A stretch of DNA of 45,760 bases from Polaromonas sp. (GTDB lineage: Bacteria; Pseudomonadota; Gammaproteobacteria; Burkholderiales; Burkholderiaceae_C). The stretch is from NCBI GenBank assembly GCA_025363315.1, contig JANYED010000283.1:1-45760 (forward strand). The letters run 5' to 3'. Numbering within the stretch: position 1 is the first letter of the stretch; every line of letters begins with the position of its first letter. A program made the translations under genes and the position numbers. The notes under the pieces are model-generated. The model ran no database searches. It had not been told where the DNA came from and worked only from the letters and a program-made list of their open reading frames with translations. This document shows, piece by piece, positions 12,218 to 22,812 of this stretch.

Positions 12218-12346
12218 TGTTTCACCAGATTGAGTTGTTTAGGAACTAAATTCATCAGTATGTTTTTTAGAATTGCGATGACCAGTAGCGACACCACAGA
12301 GTGTGCGTTGGGCATTGCTCCGGTGTTCGCAGCGCTGGGCCCGGTT

Positions 12347-12370
12347 ATCCGCTGGCCCAACACAGCGGAT
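12347..12370 (+). other. Stem-loop in the leader of the histone H1-like gene
   Basis: ATCCGCTG (12347-12354) and CAGCGGAT (12363-12370) form a perfect 8-bp stem with an 8-nt loop. It ends 43 bp before the AAGGAG ribosome binding site of the next gene. There is no T run, so it is not a terminator. The remainder of the 208-bp gap between nrdB and this gene shows no recognisable promoter or RNA. Confidence 0.4.
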
Positions 12371-12425
12371 CGCTTTGCGTACTCCAAACGTGAAGTGCTC
12401 TTTGCAACGTAAGAAGGAGAAAACT

Positions 12426-12780
12426 ATGGCAACTGCGAAAAAACCTGCGGCTAAAAAAGCTGCACCAGCGAAGAAAGCCCCTGCAAAAAAAGTAGCCGCG
12501 AAAAAAGCGCCTGCCAAAAAAGCACCGGCTAAAAAGGCGCCCGCTAAAAAAGTAGCCGCTAAAAAAGCACCGGCTAAAAAAGCTGCTGCCAAAAAAGTAC
12601 CAGCGAAAAAAGCGCCAGCGAAAAAAGTAGCTGCTAAAAAAGCACCGGCTAAAAAAGCTGCTGCAAAAAAAGCACCAGCGAAAAAGGCCGCAGCCAAGAA
12701 AGTAGCGAAGAAACCCGCTGCGAAGAAAGCCGCGAAAAAACCTGCTGCCAAAAAAGCCGCGAAAAAACCCGCTGCCAAAG
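12426..12780 (+). repeat. Tandem lysine/alanine codon repeats inside the H1-like gene
   Basis: Imperfect repeats of about 12-27 bp (units such as GCTAAAAAAGCACCG and GCCAAAAAAGTAGCC) fill the gene from its start to about 12780. Unit boundaries vary, so the array seems to have grown by unequal copying of codon blocks encoding A-K-K-A-P and A-K-K-V-A-A. All units keep the reading frame. Confidence 0.85.
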
Positions 12781-12866
12781 CACCCGCTGCACCGGCTGCT
12801 TCTGCGGCTCAGACAACTCTGAACCCGCAAGCTGCCTGGCCGTTTCCAACAGCCAGCAAGCCGTAA
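12426..12866 (+). CDS. Histone H1-like, lysine/alanine-rich DNA-binding protein
   Basis: A 146-residue protein made almost entirely of tandem [18 protein letters not shown] units, the pattern of bacterial H1-like proteins (BpH1, HctB, AlgP C-terminus) that bind and condense DNA. The last 22 residues are different ([15 protein letters not shown]), a tail I recall as shared among Burkholderiales homologues. A strong ribosome binding site AAGGAG at 12414-12419 fixes ATG 12426; the frame is open further upstream but without composition typical of the family. The codon-level repetition (AAAAAAGC/GCC units) makes the gene prone to in-frame length change. A rho-independent terminator follows 22 bp after the stop. 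Confidence 0.9.
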
Positions 12867-21461: not shown

Positions 21462-22574
21462 CTAGCCCGCCCGCCTTGCCTCGACAGCTTTGGACAGCAC
21501 GTCCAGCACCTGAAGCGAATCGTCCCACGACAGGCACGCATCGGTGATGCTTTTGCCGTATTCGAGCGCCTTGGCGTCGTCTTTGCCAGGGGTGAATTTT
21601 TGCGCGCCGGCGTTCAGGTGGCTTTCCACCATCAGGCCAAACACCTGTTTGGACCCGCCGCTGACCTGCCCTGCGATGTCGCGTGCCACTTCCAGCTGCT
21701 TTTCATGCTGTTTTGAAGAGTTGGCGTGGCTGCAGTCGACCATCAGCGTGGCGGGCAGCTTGGCGGCAGCCAGCTCTTTGCAGGCAGCTGCGACGCTGGA
21801 TGCGTCGTAGTTGGGCGTTTTGCCGCCGCGCAAAATCACGTGGCAGTCGGGGTTGCCGTTGGTCTGCACCACCGCGACCTGGCCGTTTTTATGCACCGAC
21901 AAAAAGTGATGACCGCGCGATGCGGACTGAATCGCGTCGGTGGCGATGCGGATATTGCCGTCGGTGCCGTTTTTAAAGCCAATCGGCGCAGACAGGCCAG
22001 AGGCCAGCTCGCGGTGCACCTGACTTTCCGTCGTGCGCGCGCCAATCGCGCCCCAAGCAATCAAATCGCCAATGTACTGAGGCGAGATCACGTCTAAAAA
22101 CTCACTGCCCGCAGGCAAGCCCAGGCGGTTGATGTCGATCAAAAGTTGCCGTGCCATACGAAGGCCTTCGTCGATGCGGTAGGTTTCGTCCAGGTAGGGG
22201 TCATTGATCAAGCCCTTCCAGCCGACGGTGGTGCGGGGCTTTTCAAAGTACACGCGCATCACGATCTCTAACGTACCAGCGTACTTTTTGCGCTGCTCCA
22301 CCAGGCGGCGCGCGTACTCTAGCGCAGCGGCAGGGTCGTGTATCGAACACGGCCCAATTACCACCAGCAGCCGGTCGTCTGTACCCGCGATGATGTTGTG
22401 AACGTTTTTGCGAGTGTTGGTGATCAGCGACTCAACGGGCGTGCCCTGAATCGGGAAAAAACGGATCAGATGCTCTGGCGGTGGTAACACGGTGATGTCC
22501 TTGATGCGTTCGTCGTCGGTTTGGCTGGTTTTATCGACGGGCGCATACCAGGTGGTAGTGGCTGAATTGGGCAT
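21462..22574 (-). CDS. aroG: 3-deoxy-7-phosphoheptulonate (DAHP) synthase, class I
   Basis: Condenses phosphoenolpyruvate and erythrose 4-phosphate in the first step of the shikimate pathway to Phe, Tyr and Trp. The 370 residues fit the AroF/G/H class. Motifs seen: LLVVIGPCSIHDPAAALEYA, MRVYFEKPRTTVGWKGLINDP (PEP and phosphate site), GARTTESQVHRELASGLSAPIGFKNGTDG, and MVDCSHANSSK with a metal-site cysteine and histidine. ATG 22574 is used; a GTG lies one codon earlier. AAGGAAA on the minus strand serves as ribosome binding site. Its 177-nt leader carries an aromatic-rich leader peptide and an intrinsic terminator, so expression is probably set by attenuation. Which amino acid inhibits the enzyme cannot be read from sequence; the symbol aroG is by similarity. 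Confidence 0.95.
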   Translation of the reverse strand: MPNSATTTWYAPVDKTSQTDDERIKDITVLPPPEHLIRFFPIQGTPVESLITNTRKNVHNIIAGTDDRLLVVIGPCSIHDPAAALEYARRLVEQRKKYAGTLEIVMRVYFEKPRTTVGWKGLINDPYLDETYRIDEGLRMARQLLIDINRLGLPAGSEFLDVISPQYIGDLIAWGAIGARTTESQVHRELASGLSAPIGFKNGTDGNIRIATDAIQSASRGHHFLSVHKNGQVAVVQTNGNPDCHVILRGGKTPNYDASSVAAACKELAAAKLPATLMVDCSHANSSKQHEKQLEVARDIAGQVSGGSKQVFGLMVESHLNAGAQKFTPGKDDAKALEYGKSITDACLSWDDSLQVLDVLSKAVEARRAG

Positions 22575-22621
22575 CACGGGTTTCCTTTTTTATAAAACTG
22601 AAAATCAAAAGTTAATGAGGC

Positions 22622-22652
22622 AAAAAAAAACCGCCGGGTGTCCGGCGGTTTT
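22622..22652 (-). terminator. Intrinsic terminator in the aroG leader (attenuator)
   Basis: On the minus strand, AAAACCGCCGG, loop ACAC, CCGGCGGTTTT: a perfect 11-bp stem followed by a run of nine U in all. It lies after the leader peptide ORF and 48 bp before the aroG start. Its 5' arm ACCGCCGG (22649 to 22642) can instead pair with CTGGCGGU at 22702 to 22695 inside the leader ORF, giving an 8-bp antiterminator with one G-U pair. It may also act as the end of tldD transcripts. Confidence 0.9.
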
Positions 22653-22676: not shown

Positions 22677-22751
22677 TTACGCAAAATTTTCTCTACCGCC
22701 AGGGGCGCTTGAGAACCAGAAGTAACCGAAATAAAACGATGCTTTGTGCAT
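22677..22751 (-). CDS. Aromatic amino acid leader peptide of aroG
   Basis: A 24-codon ORF with ATG at 22751 and stop TAA at 22679-22677. Codons 6-13 are Phe-Tyr-Phe-Gly-Tyr-Phe-Trp-Phe: seven aromatic residues in eight, covering all three products of the pathway that aroG opens. The remaining codons (S-S-A-P-G-G-R-E-N-F-A) are ordinary; the CCT-GGC-GGT block just after the aromatic run forms the antiterminator strand. A ribosome stalled on the aromatic codons would leave that block free. No strong Shine-Dalgarno sequence precedes the ATG, the one weak point. Too short for routine gene finders. Confidence 0.82.
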   Translation of the reverse strand: MHKASFYFGYFWFSSAPGGRENFA

Positions 22752-22784
22752 GAGACGGAATGTAGCACAGGTTAAAAAGTAGTC

Positions 22785-22812
22785 AGTATTAAGCCGTACC
22801 GCCCACCGTCAA
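22785..22812 (-). promoter_or_regulatory. Candidate promoter of the aroG leader
   Basis: Minus-strand -35 TTGACG (22812-22807) and -10 AATACT (22790-22785) with a 16-bp spacer, overlapping the tldD stop codon. Transcription would begin near 22778, about 27 nt before the leader ATG. The -10 matches the consensus at four of six positions, so this is only a candidate. Confidence 0.4.

Follow-up and report, generated by a model that had tools for sequence, protein, structure and literature searches.

A candidate transcription attenuator with Phe, Tyr, and Trp codons in its leader peptide upstream of aroG in Polaromonas and related Burkholderiales

Introduction

Bacteria control entry into the shikimate pathway in different ways. 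In E. coli, TrpR is reported to act on aroH and TyrR on aroF-tyrA (PMC5343134). Attenuators of the pheL-pheA and trpL-trpE type are described for enterobacteria (PMC11802643), and in C. glutamicum a leader peptide containing Phe-Tyr-Phe has been placed before the DAHP synthase gene aroF (PMC4046766). Regulatory RNAs have also been predicted in front of aroF and aroH in a Shewanella study (PMC2659441). The window, by which we mean the whole 45,760-nucleotide stretch of Polaromonas sp. DNA that we analyzed, contains a short open reading frame (ORF) rich in codons for aromatic amino acids in front of a DAHP synthase gene, aroG. This arrangement raises the question of whether aroG is governed by ribosome-mediated transcription attenuation and, if so, which of the aromatic amino acids are sensed.

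Results

A leader ORF with an aromatic run lies in front of aroG

The minus-strand gap between aroG and an ORF ending at 22789, which from an earlier reading we take to be tldD, contains a leader ORF of 24 codons (22677 to 22751, minus strand; MHKASFYFGYFWFSSAPGGRENFA followed by a stop). Codons 6 to 13 encode the aromatic run FYFGYFWF (22713 to 22736, minus strand), the predicted stall region with Y-F-W-F as its core. The original prediction had described a 24-codon minus-strand ORF with this run at these codons, lying directly upstream of a DAHP synthase gene and followed by a terminator, and we recovered all of these elements. The downstream gene, aroG (21462 to 22577, minus strand), encodes a class I DAHP synthase matching PF00793 (DAHP_synth_1) with 314.7 bits, and a terminator-like hairpin with a T run is present at 22652 to 22627, so that the order on the minus strand is leader ORF, terminator hairpin, and aroG. 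Translation of aroG may begin at GTG 22577 or at ATG 22574 behind AAGGA, the ATG being the more likely start. The window's own assembly has one AroG match, and among the named relatives listed, the nearest are Polaromonas, with AroG 91% identical.

At least six aromatic residues in eight were also reached, in some frame, at two other places in the window, both of them antisense to larger ORFs on the opposite strand. One of these ORFs, recognized by eye, is presumably murC. The other (12303 to 12866, plus strand) is rich in Lys, Ala, and Pro with AKKAPAKK repeats, and we assume by eye that it is histone H1-like; the aromatic-rich runs antisense to it are due to its composition.

The aromatic run is conserved throughout the window's family

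Of 60 same-family genomes, counting that of the window, 59 have a close AroG match. We scored a gap as passing if it contained an ORF with at least four aromatic residues in eight and a terminator arm between 30 nt before and 90 nt after the ORF end, a criterion chosen after the data had been seen and by which the controls were scored as well. An ORF equivalent to that in the window, with an aromatic run and a terminator, was present in the aroG gap of all 59 same-family loci, window included, and none of 590 dinucleotide shuffles of these gaps passed. When the best ORF was required to have at least six aromatic residues in eight, 53/59 real gaps qualified versus 0/590 shuffles. These results bear out the original estimate that such a run followed by a terminator had a very low chance of arising by accident. 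Alignment of the gaps, which had been called for to see whether the run is kept while the rest drifts, was likewise positive, with the run retained in 59/59 same-family loci and the peptide outside it drifting among relatives. Together with the covarying antiterminator described below, these 59 loci support the main line of that prediction, an attenuator-type leader peptide.

Relative to the Trp position, the 59 leaders encode Tyr at -2 in 46, Phe at -1 in all 59, Trp at 0 in 52, and Phe at +1 in 54. The Tyr codon at -2 varies between synonyms (TAC in 32, TAT in 14), as do the Phe codons at -6 to -4; for Phe there is a strong preference for TTT at -1 (54) and for TTC at +1 (50). On the strength of the aligned codons, the aromatic run is kept at the amino acid level. 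All three aromatic residues occur in 114 of the 142 loci that passed overall, which represent 139 distinct leaders, when the whole peptide is counted.

Depending on the locus, a downstream stretch containing GGCGG and GAGAG encodes PGGRE, TGGGE, APAVER, PAVGE, or PLAEG, and in some loci an early stop codon following GGCGGA truncates it. A five-base core complementary to the terminator arm was clear in 133 of the 142 passing loci; the remaining nine were left out of the frame count (seven with a weak core and two without a recognizable arm core). The core was in codon frame 0, 1, or 2 in 73, 5, and 55 of the 133 loci, and in 47, 1, and 7 of the 55 same-family loci counted. Because its core occurs in all three codon frames, the GGCGG..GAGAG stretch is constrained as RNA across clades, although by these counts the frame argument loses some weight within the window's family. 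A strict motif, TGGTTCTC..GGCGGNNGAGAG, was found once each in 33 of 60 same-family genomes, in every case 118 to 176 nt before the AroG match and on the same strand, and a control with the reversed pattern gave no matches in the same 60 genomes. The window's own leader lacks a strict match because it has GAGAA.

A second DAHP synthase occurs in many same-family genomes and is 51 to 58% identical in the 11 examined. The gaps before these 11 genes (L060 to L070; 11 of 35 listed matches) yielded no pass in the leader and terminator test.

A covarying antiterminator is predicted to compete with the terminator

Four RNA segments can be assigned to the window's leader. Segment 1, UUCUC (22711 to 22715, minus strand), is the proximal strand of a 1:2 hairpin and overlaps two codons, the final Phe of the run and a Ser; it derives from a predicted fold and is strongly conserved in an alignment of the 59 sequences (alignment A2). 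Segment 2 (22689 to 22702, minus strand), consisting of CUGGCGGU and then AGAGAA, has two alternative partners, segments 1 and 3. Segment 3, ACCGCCGG (22642 to 22649, minus strand), serves as both the 5' arm of the terminator and the antiterminator partner of segment 2. Segments 3 and 4 form the intrinsic terminator (22622 to 22652, minus strand; hairpin 22652 to 22627 plus T run), a kind of site of which our terminator scan expected 0.9 by chance in that stretch. The eight core pairs of the terminator are 96.4% paired across the 59 sequences, with almost no covariation.

For the 2:3 antiterminator, 81.9% of positions in the 59-sequence alignment form standard pairs, seven cells are changed on both sides, and the covariation score is 0.085; each of these three values was reached by 0/500 shuffles. 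The number of pairs changed on both sides was reached by 3/500 shuffles, and the number of further pair types was not significant (133/500). Sliding the segment 3 partner by one to three columns lowered pairing from 81.9% to 16 to 51%; at +2 and +3, the cells changed on both sides equaled or exceeded those in the true register (8 and 12 versus 7). Five of the 59 rows (L035, L049, L052, L053, and L055) are 1 nt out of register in this alignment. A register-free count over 140 of the 142 loci, which takes the best-pairing partner and is therefore biased towards pairing, found the five core 2:3 pairs to be Watson-Crick in 134 to 139 loci and the next pair to be C-G in 80, U-A in 29, and unpaired in 19. 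This count contains few covariation events because much of it is between clades. The best complementary run had a mean score of 19.7, compared to 12.75 with the leader segment shuffled, and compensatory examples include GACGG/CCGUC (L017 and L038) and AGCGG/CCGCU (L054 and L059). On this comparative evidence, the predicted 2:3 antiterminator is covarying and mutually exclusive with the terminator.

The 1:2 hairpin, also from a predicted fold, pairs UUCUC with GAGAA and overlaps the stall codons. Its region folds at a median of -11.5 kcal/mol but with little covariation; since the sequence is strongly conserved, covariation neither supports nor refutes this hairpin. Folded separately, the window's regions gave -12.0 (1:2), -18.4 (2:3), and -18.4 kcal/mol (3:4). 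At equilibrium, the full leader folded into the terminator whichever ribosome position was tried, whereas an RNA ending at segment 3 folded into the antiterminator, not 1:2, even without a ribosome. A switch would therefore have to arise from the sequence in which the RNA is synthesized and folds.

A second helix, pairing GAGAG with CUC just before the terminator, was also suggested. At least 3 nt could pair in 42/59 sequences versus 18.9 expected and at least 4 nt in 11 versus 3.0, counts that carry little weight, as the motif was mis-picked in at least two rows.

Sequence features suggest a leaderless leader mRNA in the window's family

We observed three features that had not been part of the original prediction, namely the antiterminator, an extended -10 element near the leader ATG, and a missing Shine-Dalgarno sequence. 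The extended -10 element, TGTGCTACATT (22759 to 22769, minus strand), was read in the sequence and ends 7 nt before the leader ATG; its usual distance from the ATG in the window's family is 6 to 8 nt. A TGCTACATT-like element (at least 7 of 9 positions) ending 6 to 10 nt before the chosen start was present in 49/59 same-family leaders, and a stricter extended -10 pattern was present in 43/59. Two others also fit by eye, one with an in-frame ATG two codons upstream (L005) and one with a GTG start (L032). The pattern GTGCTACATTN{5,9}ATG has a single match in the window's own 3.57-Mb assembly, at this leader. A Shine-Dalgarno core at -20 to -4 was found in 1/59 same-family leaders versus 48/58 aroG starts, with any in-frame ATG or GTG candidate allowed in the aroG count. 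Given the lack of a Shine-Dalgarno sequence and the closeness of the extended -10 element to the ATG, the leader mRNA is probably leaderless, or nearly so, in the window's family. A simple sigma-70 scan picked a different pair, with a -35 element at 22812 and a -10 element ending at 22785 (0.5 expected by chance), which would place the start about 25 to 30 nt before the leader ATG.

Among leaders of other types, 11 of the Burkholderia sensu lato type have a TATAAA box 36 to 47 nt before the start and eight of the Massilia/Rugamonas type have a TATAGT box 22 to 39 nt before it, none with a Shine-Dalgarno core; both sets of boxes were picked by eye. Judged by these spacings, the leaderless arrangement is not general beyond the window's family. 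Leaders of Burkholderia sensu lato and Cupriavidus type, typically MSAKFYFYFFWHLKPLADREG, have a -10-like box 36 to 57 nt upstream and no Shine-Dalgarno core (L088, L109, L177 to L179, L185 to L187, L192, L194, L195, L197, and L206). For B. cenocepacia in general, leaderless transcripts have been reported that carry a TA-rich motif immediately upstream (PMC4603805); the term aroG is absent from the main text of that report.

The leader extends to other Burkholderiales families and to Xanthomonas-type genomes

At the order level, 25 of 69 AroG loci passed, three of them in the window's family; the 69 comprise most, not all, of the higher-scoring matches. Besides the window's family, the passing loci represent ten further families (f3, f4, f7, f9, f10, f11, f12, f22, f31, and f39), and at least f7 and f31 are mixed, with some loci that lack a leader. 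Among named genomes, 58/80 passed, including Polaromonas, Variovorax, Acidovorax, Hydrogenophaga, Comamonas, Rhizobacter, Burkholderia, Caballeronia, Paraburkholderia, Massilia, Rugamonas, Janthinobacterium, and Dyella, together with one of three Cupriavidus. No such element was found in 44/69 order-level loci or in 22/80 named loci, although one of the 22 has it by eye; one locus (L110) was cut at a contig end. Xanthomonas (L217) also has the leader when judged by eye, its terminator falling inside the matched stretch. The named loci in which no leader was found included all three Polynucleobacter, two of three Cupriavidus, all four Methylotenera, and Thauera, Azoarcus, Rhodocyclus, Chitinimonas, Undibacterium, and others.

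The three Polynucleobacter and two Cupriavidus loci (L160 to L162, L164, and L169) encode a close AroG with neither leader nor terminator in front of it, a pattern that suggests loss. A class-wide search from the Xanthomonas protein revealed the leader by eye in 2 of the 30 matches listed, six of which were cut, so that the upstream coordinate may be off there. Both leader loci belong to one family, and their AroG proteins share 82% and 77% identity with the Xanthomonas protein. These Xanthomonas-type genomes (L217, L233, and L234), which lie outside the Burkholderiales, share the leader along with the GGCGG/CCGCC pairing, which may reflect either old inheritance or transfer.

Discussion

What we observed comprises the leader ORF, the terminator, and the alternative pairing, the conservation and covariation of these elements, and, as features of the sequence, the promoter and the missing Shine-Dalgarno sequence. 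On this basis, the aroG leader is very probably a ribosome-mediated transcription attenuator of the trpL/pheL kind that carries codons for the aromatic amino acids together. Translation of the leader, ribosome stalling, the transcription start site, and a starvation response are parts that we infer. In the model that we propose, transcription probably starts at or beside the leader ATG. When charged Phe-, Tyr-, and Trp-tRNAs are plentiful, the ribosome would pass the aromatic codons, segment 2 would be covered or paired with segment 1, and the 3:4 terminator would form and stop transcription before aroG. If one of these tRNAs is uncharged, a ribosome would stall on the Y-F-W-F codons and cover segment 1, leaving segment 2 to pair with segment 3 (CUGGCGGU with ACCGCCGG), which would block the terminator and allow aroG to be transcribed. 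Given the usual ribosome footprint, UUCUC would be covered and GGCGG left free by a ribosome stalled with any codon from Tyr10 to Phe13 in its A site, but not by one stalled earlier.

The mechanism class is already known, and one close analogue exists in aroR of C. glutamicum. According to a review, Neshat 2014 found stalling-dependent transcription under limitation for Phe, not Tyr (PMC11802643). Like the window leader, aroR places an aromatic run (Phe-Tyr-Phe) before a DAHP synthase gene; unlike it, aroR belongs to a different phylum, and its quoted motif lacks Trp. The aroR transcript itself is reportedly leaderless, a finding credited to Neshat. The pheL and trpL leaders share with the window leader the 1:2, 2:3, and 3:4 logic and stall codons that match the pathway product, but each serves one amino acid from an ordinary ribosome binding site, and their targets are terminal branches, whereas that of the window leader is the common entry step. 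A single leader with codons for several end products is also found before ilvGMEDA (ilvL), in that case for branched-chain amino acids. In S. meliloti, the 5' end of the trpL leader RNA (rnTrpL/peTrpL) is reported to be the ATG of the leader ORF (PMC7298713); that leader differs in serving Trp only, in preceding trpE(G), and in its reported trans functions. Predicted attenuators near tyrA, including a Bordetella parapertussis tyrA cluster, are taken from Merino's database in Table 7 of PMC1173090; like ours, these concern attenuation of aromatic genes, but in tyrA-linked operons, and the text of that tyrA table gives no leader before a Burkholderiales aroG. The words "aromatic" and "DAHP" are absent from the main text of a premature-terminator survey (PMC2965389). 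Rfam covariance models gave no matches at the gathering threshold in the window, and neither NCBIfam, with four leader peptides, nor Pfam, with three, gave a match. In titles and abstract beginnings of the open-licence literature, we found no description of an aroG leader peptide in Burkholderiales or Xanthomonadaceae; subscription journals may hold predictions.

From its codons, the leader would sense all three of Phe, Tyr, and Trp. In its most specific form, this reading makes a single leaderless leader a three-input sensor, in which shortage of any of Phe, Tyr, and Trp, stalling the ribosome at its own codon in Y-F-W-F, opens the entry step; we consider this form nearly an even call. A real possibility, if one falling somewhat short of even, is that the same attenuator responds mainly to Phe, perhaps with Trp, and that Tyr and Trp add little. 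Phe is indeed the commonest residue and occupies the most constant positions (means of 4.47 Phe, 1.76 Tyr, and 0.87 Trp per leader), Trp is missing from 25/142 leaders and Tyr from 4/142 when the whole peptide is counted, and the F-Y-F leader of C. glutamicum aroR is described as responding to Phe and not to Tyr (PMC11802643). A mainly Phe signal fits less well with the retention in the window's family of Trp at 0 (52/59 leaders) and Tyr at -2 (46/59), positions at which stalling should be most effective in freeing segment 2.

The remaining explanations depart from attenuation by codon-specific stalling. TnaC offers a precedent for a nascent-peptide arrest element, in which the peptide and a free aromatic amino acid would together stall the ribosome, and the C terminus does look conserved in many same-family leaders (SVPGGREA and HRTGGGEA), with the GG codons in one frame in 47/55. 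We regard such arrest as quite improbable, since 8/55 same-family and 52/78 other leaders translate this RNA in a different frame, and the peptides of L002, L010, L034, and L042 end right after GG while the RNA continues unchanged. Even less probable is a stable peptide, or a terminated leader RNA, that acts in trans like peTrpL/rnTrpL of S. meliloti and makes attenuation secondary. The likely leaderless small mRNA and terminated leader are built alike in the two cases, and the precedent is reported (PMC7298713), but residues outside the aromatic run drift. That a chance aromatic run happens to lie beside a terminator of tldD is scarcely credible: the terminator is also downstream of tldD, but the run is kept in 59/59 same-family loci, 0/590 shuffles reproduce it with a terminator, and the antiterminator covaries.

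Attenuation at a leader with codons for the aromatic amino acids remains our preferred reading. If its three-input form is true, this leader would be a main control on the shikimate pathway across much of the Burkholderiales and in Xanthomonadaceae. Attenuation of aroG would explain how a large bacterial group controls shikimate entry by means other than the TyrR and TrpR of E. coli. The collected leaders would also provide a large natural data set for separating amino acid-level from RNA-level constraint on neighboring codons, and the missing Shine-Dalgarno sequence with a -10 element beside the ATG may make this leader a good case for leaderless translation coupled to transcription.
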